Source: Acidobacteriota bacterium
GTDB lineage: Bacteria > Acidobacteriota > UBA890 > WLXD01
DNA: 39,386 nucleotides
Assembly: GCA_029263335.1 (NCBI GenBank)
Contig: JAJCXS010000175.1
Location: 1-39,386 of the forward strand
Direction: 5' to 3'
The stretch's first letter is position 1. Each line of letters opens with the position of its first letter. The notes under the pieces were generated by a model. That model searched no databases and was not told the DNA's origin. It was given only the letters and a program-made list of their open reading frames with translations. Both the position numbers and the translations under genes were made by a program. This document shows, piece by piece, positions 11,640-37,586 of the stretch.

Positions 11640-12113
11640 ATGACTAAACACACCACCGCATCGCCGCCCAAAGCCGGCGAGTGCGCCTGCACGATGCTGA
11701 AGAAGGCCTCCCGGGCCATGACGCGTTTCTACGAGGAGGCCATGGCACCCGCGGGTGTCACGGCCACCCAGTTCGCGATTCTCCGAGCGCTGGAGCGCAA
11801 CGGCCCGACCCCCCTGAGTCGGCTCGCCGAGGAGCTCGTCATGGACCGCACTTCGCTGTATCGCGCCCTGTCCCCTCTGCTGCGCGACGCGTTGCTTGTC
11901 ACCAAGGCGAGCAGCGTCGACCGCCGCGTGAAAGAGGCGGCGCTGTCGCGAGCGGGCCATCGGAGAATCGCTCGGGCCCTGCCCTACTGGCGAAGCGCCC
12001 AGGACGACTTCCTCGCAGACTTCGGCACACGCGACTGGTCCGGGACCGCTGGCTCGCTCGCCAAGTTGGTCGCGCTGGTTCCCAGCTCGCGCAAGTCCAC
12101 GCGCATACCGTAA
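11640..12113 (+). CDS. MarR family regulator with paired N-terminal cysteines
   Basis: A 157-residue winged-helix repressor. The sequence AGECACTMLKKASRAMTRFYEEAMAPAGVTATQFAIL is the dimerisation helix and entry to the DNA-binding domain. LSRLAEELVMDRTSLYRALSPLLRDALLV is the helix-turn-helix and SSVDRRVKEAALSRAGHRRI the wing with the conserved DxR. Cys15 and Cys17 near the N-terminus occupy the region where OhrR-like MarR proteins carry a redox Cys, so thiol or electrophile sensing is possible. Ribosome-binding site AAGGAG is 8 bases before ATG. It lies 30 bases upstream of the AhpD-like selenoprotein and divergent from the ridA operon. It is probably an autoregulator controlling both. Confidence 0.88.
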   Translation: MTKHTTASPPKAGECACTMLKKASRAMTRFYEEAMAPAGVTATQFAILRALERNGPTPLSRLAEELVMDRTSLYRALSPLLRDALLVTKASSVDRRVKEAALSRAGHRRIARALPYWRSAQDDFLADFGTRDWSGTAGSLAKLVALVPSSRKSTRIP

Positions 12114-12143
12114 CCAGCTCGCACACCATGACAGGAGGGTTCC

Positions 12144-12692
12144 GTGGGGCGTATTCGTCAGCTCGAGCGTGGTGAGATCGGCGCAGAATCGCAGGCCGTC
12201 TACGATTGGTTCGTCGCCGACAGGGGCGTGGTTCCCAATTCCTTCAGGACTTTCGCACACGCCGAGCCCCTGCTGAGCACGCTCGTCGGGCACTACAGAG
12301 CCCTGATCCGGGATGCCGAACTACCTGCTCCCCTGAAGCAGATGGTGCTGCTCAGGGTGTCGGCGCTCAACGCCTGCCACTATTGAATGGCTGGGCATAC
12401 TGCCTGGGCCAGGCAGATGGGATTCTCGAGCGCGCAGATCGACCGCTTGAGCTGCACGGCCGCGCCGGAGGACGAGCTAGCGGCGGGGACCGAATCAGAA
12501 GCGATCCAGGTCGCCCTGCGTTACGCGGCGACGGTCACGACGGACCCTCACGCGGTCTCCGACGCGGACTTCGAGGAACTACAGCGCCACTACACCGCCC
12601 CCCAGATCGTCGAGCTGACCTGCGTGGTGGGCATGTGCAACTACCTGAACCGCTTCACCAGTGCCCTGCAGATCGACCCCACGGGCAGTTAG
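12144..12692 (+). CDS. AhpD-like (carboxymuconolactone decarboxylase family) selenoprotein, UGA read as Sec81
   Basis: One 182-residue reading frame interrupted only by TGA at 12384-12386. Upstream it reads LPAPLKQMVLLRVSALNACHY and downstream MAGHTAWARQMGFSSAQID, in the same frame. Joined, they give C78-H-Y-U81-M-A-G-H85, the AhpD catalytic motif CxxCxxxH with TGA exactly at the second Cys. Homology is continuous on both sides and the downstream part is undamaged to its own stop, so a decayed gene is unlikely. A hairpin (12400-12416) sits at SECIS distance. AhpD-like proteins are thiol-disulfide oxidoreductases or peroxidase partners; selenium would replace the resolving or attacking thiol. 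The start is GTG 12144 with a strong AGGAGGG site. It is the second gene after marR. An automatic annotation would split it in two. Confidence 0.85.
12400..12416 (+). promoter_or_regulatory. Putative bacterial SECIS hairpin
   Basis: CTGCCT (12400-12405) pairs perfectly with AGGCAG (12411-12416) around a GGGCC apical loop. The loop starts 19 bases after the UGA, and its first bases are G, both as described for bacterial SECIS elements recognised by SelB. It lies within the coding sequence of the AhpD-like protein (codons for TAWARQ), so coding constraint and the RNA signal coincide. Confidence 0.6.
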
Positions 12693-33445: not shown

Positions 33446-34540
33446 ATGCTCGCCCGCGATCATTACGCCACCCTGGGAGTCCCGCCGAACGCCCTCGACG
33501 ATGAAATCGACGAGGCGTATCGGCACCTGAGTCGACGCTATCACCCGGACATCAATCCCGGTGATCCGCACGCCGCCATGGTCTACGAGCGTCTCGAGAC
33601 CGCCTACCGAGTCCTCTCAGACCCGGCCCGGCGGGCACGCTACGACGCCGAAGACTCCCCGGCCGCGATCGAGGCGGCATCCGGCCCGGATCTGAGCGTC
33701 CAACTGGTACCGGAGGCCGACGACAACACCTCCTACCAGGATCTGTTCCGCCTGCTGCGTGACCACGCGCGACGTGCCGGACCGCTACAGGGAGAGGATA
33801 TCCACGCCACTGTGGACGTCCCCCTTCTGCAGGCCGGACGCGGCCGCCGAGCCCGCATGACAGTACAGCGACGTAGCGAATGTCCCGACTGCCGCGGTCG
33901 CGGTCGGGTGCAGCTGCAGCGCTCGCGGCCGTGCGATGTGTGCGGCGGCAGCGGTGAGGAGAGTTTCGTCAAGGGGGCGTTGTCGGTTACCTGCGCCTGC
34001 GCCGGGTGCGCCGGTAGCGGGCTGGCGACCGGCCGGCGATGTGACCGGTGTCGCGGCAGCGGATCGATCTCCAGCTCGGAGACCGCGCTCGTTCGCGTGC
34101 CGGCAAGCACCACCGACGGGCAGCAGCTGCGCCTGCCCGGGGAGGGGCACCGCGGCCTTCGCGGCGGCAAGCCAGGCGATCTGGTGATTCAGGTGAGGGT
34201 CGTCCCCCTCCCCGGTTGGCACCGCGAAGGCGACAACCTGCATGGTCGTCTGGTGCTAAGCGCAGCCGAGGCAATCCTCGGCTGCAAGATCCGCATCGAT
34301 CTCCCCGACGGCGCTTCCACGTCGCTGCGGGTGCCGCCCAACACCCCGGCTGGATACCGGTTCAAGCTGCGCCGACGCGGCCTGGAGATGTCTGACGGAC
34401 GGCGAGGCGATATGCTTCTGCGCGCCGAGATCGTCCTCCCCGAGGTCCTCGACGAGGAGACACGGGAGCTGATCCGGGAATTCGCCAAGCGCCACCCCTA
34501 CAACCCGCGGACCGAGCCCATCAGGGAGTCGCGAGAATGA
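33446..34540 (+). CDS. dnaJ: DnaJ-type co-chaperone (HspR operon)
   Basis: A 364-residue type I J-protein. The J domain (1-70) contains YHPD (32-35) and the QKRAxYD-like end RRARYDAED. The usual Gly/Phe-rich linker is missing, replaced by an acidic linker (EADDNTSYQDLFRLLRDH). A zinc domain with four CxxCxGxG-type repeats follows (CPDCRGRG, CDVCGGSG, CAGCAGSG, CDRCRGSG), then two beta-barrel client domains with LPGEGHRGLRGGKPGDL. It stimulates DnaK ATP hydrolysis. It is co-transcribed with dnaK, and its stop overlaps hspR (ATGA). It differs from the canonical DnaJ at 36465-37586, which has a G/F region. Confidence 0.93.
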   Translation: MLARDHYATLGVPPNALDDEIDEAYRHLSRRYHPDINPGDPHAAMVYERLETAYRVLSDPARRARYDAEDSPAAIEAASGPDLSVQLVPEADDNTSYQDLFRLLRDHARRAGPLQGEDIHATVDVPLLQAGRGRRARMTVQRRSECPDCRGRGRVQLQRSRPCDVCGGSGEESFVKGALSVTCACAGCAGSGLATGRRCDRCRGSGSISSSETALVRVPASTTDGQQLRLPGEGHRGLRGGKPGDLVIQVRVVPLPGWHREGDNLHGRLVLSAAEAILGCKIRIDLPDGASTSLRVPPNTPAGYRFKLRRRGLEMSDGRRGDMLLRAEIVLPEVLDEETRELIREFAKRHPYNPRTEPIRESRE

Positions 34541-35727: not shown

Positions 35728-36468
35728 TCAGGCCAGATCTCCCCAGACCGCCTGCACGAGGGCCAATGCGGCGGGCCCGGCGCTGTCTGCGCGTAGGACG
35801 CGCGGCCCCAGGGCCACGGCAGCGCCCCCTTCCTCGTGTAGCAGGGACCGCTCGGCAGCGTCCCAGCCCCCCTCGGGGCCTACGAAGATCGCACAGCGCG
35901 TCTCCTGCGAAGATCGCAACGCGGCAGCCAGCGACCTCACCGCCGTGGGCTGCAACAGGAACCGTGACGTGGGCAGTTGCGTCCACCTGATCTCCGGCAG
36001 CGGCACGACGGGCGCGATACGCGGGACCACGGTCCGGCCGCATTGCTTGGCGGCCGATTCGGCGATTCGACGCCAGCGCTCCGCACGACGACCGAGCACC
36101 GCTGAGCCTCCAGCCGGCACCTGGCTGCGTGCGCCAACGACCGGAATGATCTCGCGGACGCCGAGCTCCGTGCACAGGCGAACCGTGGTATCGAGGCGCT
36201 GGATCTTCACCGGCACAGCCTGCACCAGCGTCACCGCGACCGGCGACTCCGCCGCGTCGACAACGGCGCCGACCACACGGACGCGAACGTGATCCGGAGC
36301 AACCTCCTCGAGCACGCCAAGCGCCCCATTGCCTTCCCCGTCGAACAGCTCCACCGTCGTGCCGGCCTGCAAACGCATGACACGAAGATGATGGTCCTCC
36401 TCCCGGGCGAGTTCGGCGAACTCGCCCGCCAGCGACCCGGGTTCCACGCGGAAGCGACGCGTACTCAC
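35728..36468 (-). CDS. rsmE: 16S rRNA m3U1498 methyltransferase
   Basis: A 246-residue SPOUT methyltransferase (RsmE) that methylates U1498 of 16S rRNA using S-adenosylmethionine. N-terminal PUA-like domain: [43 protein letters not shown]. Trefoil-knot domain: [57 protein letters not shown] and [17 protein letters not shown]. The start is GTG 36468, forming GTGA with the dnaJ stop, so it is coupled to the hrcA-grpE-dnaJ operon as in many bacteria. Confidence 0.95.
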
Positions 36469-37586
36469 TCGCCGAAAACGCTGGTGCGCAACCGATCCCA
36501 CCAGGACTGTTCGTCCCCGAGGTCGTCGGGGTCGCCTATCAGCTCACCGAGCTGCTGGAGTGCTTGCTCCTGCTCCTCGCTCAGGCGCCGCGGTGTCACC
36601 ACCTGAACCTCGACCTTCAGGTCTCCAGGTCTTCCGCCGTTCACCGACGGCATGCCCAGACCGCGCAGGTCGATCACCTGGCCAGATTGTGTGCCGGCCG
36701 GGACTTCCAAGCTCGCCACCTTGCCATCGACGGTCGAAACGTCGATCGCACCGCCGAGCGCGACGCGAGGAAAACTCGCCGGGGCGCGCGTATACAGATC
36801 CCGTCCGTGACGTACAAAGCGCTCGTGCTCGGCGACATCGAGCACGACCTCGAGATCGCCCGCGGGGCCACCGCGCAATCCACTTTCGCCCTCACCGCGC
36901 AGGCGCAGACGCATGCCCGTATCGACGCCAGCGGGTATCGCGACCTTGAGCTGCGCTCTTTCGGGCGCACGGCCCTCGCCGCGACAGGTCGTGCAGGGAT
37001 CGTCCACGATCGCCCCCGCACCACCGCAACGGCCACACGGCCGCGCGACAGTGAGGAACCCATGGCGCTGCTGAACCTGACCCACGCCAGCGCAGGCGAC
37101 ACAGGTCGTGCGCCCGGTACCACTCTCGGAGCCGCTGCCGTCACAGTCCGAACAAGTCCGCTGGCGCGGCACCGTGATCTCGACCTCGTCGCCCCCGAAC
37201 GCCTGTTCGAGGCTGATGCGCAGGCGATACTGCAGCGACGAACCGCGCGTCGGCCCGCTGCTCCGGCGACCGCCACCGAATCCGACGTTGAAGCCGAAGA
37301 AGCTCCCGAGAATGTCGGAAAAGTCGGCGAAGACGTCGGCATTGAAGTCGGGCTGGCCCCCTCCACGGACGCCCGCATGTCCGAACTGGTCGTACCGGGC
37401 GCGCTTATCCGCGTCGCCCAAGACGGCATACGCTTCCGCCGCCTGCTTGAATCGTTCCTCGGCCTCGGCGTCGCCGCGATTGCGGTCCGGATGGTCCCGC
37501 AACGCCGCCTTCCGATAGGCCTTCTTGATCTCGTCGGCGCTGGCTCCGCGCTCCACGCCCAGCAATTCGTAATAGTCGACAGCCAT
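36465..37586 (-). CDS. dnaJ: Chaperone DnaJ (canonical, hrcA operon)
   Basis: A 373-residue DnaJ. J domain [26 protein letters not shown] with HPD at 32-34, and [14 protein letters not shown]. It has a Gly/Phe-rich linker ([16 protein letters not shown]), four zinc motifs [25 protein letters not shown] and CTTCRGEG, and client-binding barrels with [19 protein letters not shown]. It delivers clients to DnaK and stimulates its ATPase. Ends are coupled: it starts two bases after the grpE stop and overlaps rsmE. This is the second dnaJ in the window. Confidence 0.97.

Follow-up and report, generated by a model that had tools for sequence, protein, structure and literature searches.

Does the TGA that cuts a small gene of an acidobacterium in two end a protein, or does it encode an amino acid? 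The DNA at issue, hereafter the window, is a stretch of 39,386 nucleotides corresponding to contig C175 (JAJCXS010000175.1) of a draft genome (GCA_029263335.1; 4.07 Mb, 310 contigs, 92.7% completeness). Two open reading frames abut there in one frame, 12144-12386 (80 aa) and 12387-12692 (101 aa), split by the TGA at 12384-12386; joined, they yield C-H-Y-[TGA]-M-A-G-H, that is C78-H-Y-U81-x-x-x-H85. A preliminary description had given this layout, together with a strong ribosome-binding site, and both are exact on re-reading, AGGAGG lying five bases before the GTG start (Table 1). Beside the TGA, no disruption is seen in the reading frame. Layout alone is nevertheless no evidence, since this GC-rich window holds 35 same-frame pairs of frames split by a TGA at a similar size cut; the CxxUxxxH motif occurs in one of the 35, the present gene. 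The case for selenocysteine (Sec) is comparative, and rests on a TGA kept in 20 other genomes, a covarying hairpin of the SECIS type and the presence of sel genes. Judged from such comparisons, the split gene is very probably intact, its stop being read as the active-site Sec of a small redox enzyme of the AhpD type.

Table 1. Features of the AhpD-like locus and its upstream neighbour, in window coordinates.
Feature	Position	Strand	Description and basis
MarR-family regulator gene	11640..12113	+	Pfam MarR; ends 30 nt upstream of the AhpD-like CDS
Shine-Dalgarno AGGAGG	12133..12138	+	5 bases 5' of GTG 12144; direct sequence reading
CDS, predicted AhpD/CMD-fold selenoprotein	12144..12692	+	GTG start, TAG stop (12690-12692), 182 residues with U81; read-through translation
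Gln66 at the AhpD Glu118 position	12339..12341	+	Glu in the other 29 family members (column table)
Cys78, CxxU partner residue, AhpD Cys130	12375..12377	+	Alignment
Putative Sec codon TGA (U81), AhpD Cys133 position	12384..12386	+	Among 30 close family members, one alignment column with TGA (21) or Cys (9)
His85, AhpD His137	12396..12398	+	Invariant in 30/30 family members
Putative bacterial SECIS hairpin CUGCCUG-GGC-CAGGCAG	12400..12416	+	7 bp, 3-nt loop 12407-12409, 20 nt after the TGA; hairpin scan, covariation

A profile of the gene's nearest homologues was run against 396 genomes of the phylum to find relatives, some members coming from an earlier first search. Thirty close, high-scoring family members align at the critical place, a single column that holds TGA in 21 and a cysteine codon in nine, which is the alternation to be expected of a Sec/Cys family. 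The 21 TGA genomes are spread over many genera and families. Every one of them has selA, as against two of the nine Cys genomes (Fisher P=1.8e-5, a figure that ignores relatedness), the gene being missing from the other seven. Similarity extends across the TGA: the window protein and its relative in genome G136 share 38 of 80 residues before it and 47 of 95 after it, and dN is lower than dS downstream of the TGA in all nine pairs of Sec forms tested. In the other 20 TGA genomes the next codon is ACC, CTG, GTG, AAC or yet others, ATG included, so that the Met that follows the window TGA is incidental. Within the genus, the gene was not found in the two other genomes searched (G001 and G002), and a scan of a named-genome collection returned only relatives of about 28% identity.

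Two further groups of sequences came to light in this survey. Four genomes of one family encode members (L092, L099, L100, L101) with a C-terminal extension of some 100-150 residues, GAF-type-like by eye. A separate CMD group (L067 in G002, L042 in G103, L078 in G130) contains a TGA within C-V/P-F-U-Q/L-D and is without the His at +4 after Sec; it is perhaps another group of selenoproteins.

A changed genetic code, with TGA standing for Trp or another amino acid, would explain the open frame and nothing more. Many long genes of the window (SecA, DnaK, UvrA) end in TGA, and the column holds Cys, never Trp, in the nine homologues that lack the TGA; the probability that we grant to this reading is vanishingly small.

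If the TGA is instead a Sec codon, a bacterial SECIS element should lie just downstream. A current model of these elements specifies a loop of 3-9 nt, a stem of 4-16 bp and a spacing of 16-37 nt, with a G in the first two loop positions and a minimum free energy (MFE) of at most -7.5 kcal/mol (PMC13188914). The hairpin of the window agrees with this model (MFE -10.8 kcal/mol for the hairpin alone), and it recurs in all 21 TGA genes with a spacing of exactly 20 nt and the loop GGC. Numbered from the T of TGA, its arms are columns 17-23 and 27-33. Over the 21 distinct TGA sequences, 99.3% of the cells are paired, and changes on both sides, hence compensatory, are found in six of the seven base pairs. 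The covariation score is 0.752, as against 0.273 after shuffling, with no shuffle equally high, and it drops to 0.176 or less when the partner column is slid by 1-3 positions. In the Cys genes the hairpin is absent, with 31.7% pairing, no better than shuffled. When the protein is kept and synonymous codons are drawn at random, the window gene reaches seven pairs in 0.035% of draws (P=0.00035). Furthermore, the codon before the GC of the loop specifies Leu, Gln or Trp, yet always ends in G; the residue changes while the final G of the codon is constant, which indicates that the loop is conserved as RNA.

Energy tells a different story. Plain folding of the 47-nt stretch is not significant against shuffles (z=-0.81) and prefers another pairing, and this measure was dropped as evidence for a SECIS in favour of covariation and the coding-constrained null. 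The argument for a putative SECIS is thus one of covariation rather than of energy. An Rfam search of the window gave no match.

The hairpin bears directly on whether the TGA might be a genuine stop, the gene being a pseudogene or a pair of separate frames of which the second re-initiates at ATG 12387 or is a relic. The ATG placed directly after the TGA fits that account, as do the patchy presence of the gene within its genus and its long branch. But a relic would hardly share its TGA column with 20 other genomes in which the next codon varies, be free of any further disruption in frame and keep a hairpin through compensatory changes. We consider a true stop very improbable.

Can the organism make and insert selenocysteine at all? 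The preliminary proposal of an AhpD-like protein with Sec in place of a redox Cys calls for selA, selB, selC and selD, and all four are present in the source genome, so that an objection based on their absence fails. The tRNA-Sec (anticodon TCA) is on contig C250, selB on C299 (359.8 bits) and selA on C50 (538 bits). The tRNA-Sec model alone was distrusted, as in control runs it passes its cut-off in Caulobacter and Thermus too; ARAGORN and the selA and selB searches were therefore added. There are two copies of selD, one with its own in-frame TGA (context SGGUAAK) and thus itself a selenoprotein gene. These two genes, L019 on C289 and L020 on C257 (1001-1921), comprise one Sec-containing SelD; the copy without TGA is part of an open frame of 780 residues, possibly a fusion akin to the Ndh-SelD proteins (PMC2398784). 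Searching the source genome with the SECIS model gave the window site as the only strong match; a match of 23 bits at C246:3005 was rejected, being in no credible frame. The same genome also has two other AhpD-like genes with a TGA at the CHYU position, L074 (C170:3811-4173) and L075 (C55:3022-3390), which brings its AhpD-like selenoprotein candidates to three, the window gene included.

A sequencing or assembly error that turned a Cys codon, TGC or TGT, into TGA would be in keeping with a draft assembly and with the Cys found at this site in other families. The same error would, however, have to recur in the assemblies of 20 other genomes, while the SECIS is found only where the TGA is present, in a genome that has the Sec genes; such an error is extremely improbable. 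The alternation of TGA and Cys, the covarying SECIS and the sel genes all agree with the proposal of a selenoprotein. We hold it nearly certain, on this comparative ground, that the locus is one gene for a selenoprotein, an oxidoreductase of the AhpD fold, its UGA at 12384-12386 being read as Sec by way of the SECIS.

The gene upstream deserves a comment. The MarR gene is on the same strand as the AhpD-like gene and encodes a C-x-C pair close to the N-terminus, and in this genome the two genes possibly share a transcript. The preliminary description had taken this adjoining, cysteine-containing MarR as support. Adjacency and cysteine pair are there, but not the functional weight put on them: in the gene neighbourhoods of the relatives, where open reading frames were judged by eye without a profile search, no MarR gene was recognized. 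Three homologues of the window MarR, on plasmids, adjoin other genes; the record of a fourth carries no annotation. An operon link was rejected, as the pairing is not conserved beside the relatives and the plasmid homologues sit by other genes. Among regulators, the acidobacterial PadR family TIGR03433 counts 11 copies over its cut-off, versus none in 14 control genomes, which points to Acidobacteriota. Elsewhere in the window two DnaJ genes (33446-34540 and 36465-37586) lie in a dnaK-hrcA heat-shock region.

What the protein does is a separate matter. It matches Pfam CMD PF02627 (E=1.5e-10, 41.4 bits against a cut-off of 23) and passes the NCBIfam AhpD core domain TIGR00778 (39.8 against 27.8 bits). 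An AlphaFold2 model built from the 30-member alignment has a pLDDT of 93.2; Foldseek places it closest to AhpD-like antioxidant proteins (3c1l, 2prr, 2oyo and 6k40, TM 0.81-0.86, with 2oyo reaching up to 0.86), the debrominase Bmp8 coming next. Comparison supports the predicted coding unit, Sec column, SECIS, Sec machinery and fold. We infer actual Sec insertion, a catalytic cycle and a peroxidase role. SelB with Sec-tRNA would bind the hairpin, and the ribosome would decode the UGA as selenocysteine. The product would be an all-helical thiol/selenol oxidoreductase of the AhpD fold, in which U81, the counterpart of Cys133 in Mycobacterium tuberculosis AhpD, may attack a peroxide or a disulfide, to be resolved by C78 as an Se-S bond, with H85 and Y80 as presumed parts of a proton relay.

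That relay consists in AhpD of Glu118, Cys130, His132/Tyr, Cys133 and His137, the Glu118 position not being strictly invariant, since one family member has His (PMC3141380). By alignment, Cys78, Tyr80 (the His132/Tyr50 position), Sec81 and His85 are all present, Gln66 occupying the Glu118 position. The loop that follows residue 102 carries six inserted residues, and in a maximum-likelihood tree no branch of the subfamily is longer than that of the window protein (1.23). The Gln, the insertion and the branch together suggest a possibly weakened or altered activity. A selenoprotein of the AhpD fold that is no peroxidase but, say, a thiol-disulfide enzyme or one like the reductive dehalogenases would differ in function only and is compatible with Sec. 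Bmp8 as the best PDB match by sequence and the replaced relay Glu lean that way, and no AhpC partner came to notice beside the gene, the better structural matches being AhpD-like antioxidant or peroxidase-related proteins that rank ahead of Bmp8; such an enzyme is conceivable, though rather unlikely. A peroxidase or adaptor role is likely, and a changed substrate is possible.

The family also appears to document the loss of selenium. In the maximum-likelihood tree a single clade (100/98) nested inside the Sec clade holds eight of the nine Cys forms, G277 being a separate Cys case outside it. Thr has likewise taken the place of the motif's first Cys in eight of the nine: T-x-x-C stands for C-x-x-U in L029, L093, L096, L104, L105, L107, L108 and L113, where partner Cys and Sec are both gone. 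In G393, which falls within the Cys clade, CxxC is preserved and selA is still in the genome; it looks like an intermediate on the way from Sec to Cys. A change in that direction is the simpler reading of a tree whose deep root is not fixed. We put at about an even chance the broader view that these AhpD-like selenoproteins form a clade of their own, as yet without a name, that extends over many families of one phylum, shares an unusually uniform SECIS and records selenium loss (Sec to Cys in G393 with selA; Thr for the partner Cys in the other Cys forms of the clade, in genomes without selA), the window copy, with Gln for the relay Glu and possibly another substrate, being a divergent member.

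Standard gene calling would report two fragments in place of this enzyme or take its gene for a broken one. Moreover, the window protein falls below all NCBIfam full-length family cut-offs, and routine pipelines would probably miss this copy. In the clade, Sec and Cys enzymes from genomes that have or lack the Sec machinery form a clean natural series, useful for asking what Sec brings to an AhpD active site and which changes accompany its loss, here that of the partner Cys.

How does the protein compare with known ones? Its best full-length match is the peroxidase-related enzyme family TIGR01926, which all 30 family members match at E<=0.001, the window protein scoring 64.1 bits, below the cut-off of 81.8. 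NF053654 (GroundWater_YciW) and NF041238 (AhpD_rel_CFYUT), annotated as (seleno)proteins, belong to the same superfamily, but with 53.7 and 31.3 bits against cut-offs of 310 and 175 the window protein is a member of neither. With M. tuberculosis AhpD and Pseudomonas aeruginosa PA0269 it shares the two-helix core, C-x-x-C/U and a His at +4, Tyr80 standing at the His132/Tyr50 position; it differs in having Sec for Cys133 and Gln66 for Glu118 (Glu36 in PA0269). Bmp8 (6ohi), its best PDB match by sequence, has the AhpD fold with CxxC; identity is about 19% by structure alignment, and Bmp8 is without Sec. As the preliminary description correctly stated, AhpD-like selenoproteins have appeared in marine surveys: AhpD-like and CMD CxxU forms were described in 2005 from the Sargasso Sea (PMC1088965) and in 2008 from the Global Ocean Sampling (PMC2398784). 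A 2026 review lists TIGR01926, PF02627, NF041047 and NF041238 forms, with TIGR01926 as an AhpD-like CxxU family (PMC13188914). This kind of protein has therefore been known since 2005, and the window copy adds a member. The marine AhpD-like 1 (COG2128), AhpD-like 2 and CMD (PF02627) proteins share with it the place of CxxU in the AhpD/CMD fold, a bacterial SECIS just after the UGA and the existence of Cys homologues (PMC1088965, PMC2398784). Compared by description, those forms come from marine or aquatic metagenomes, whereas the window clade was traced in one phylum, probably Acidobacteriota, with the spacing fixed at 20 nt and a GGC loop.
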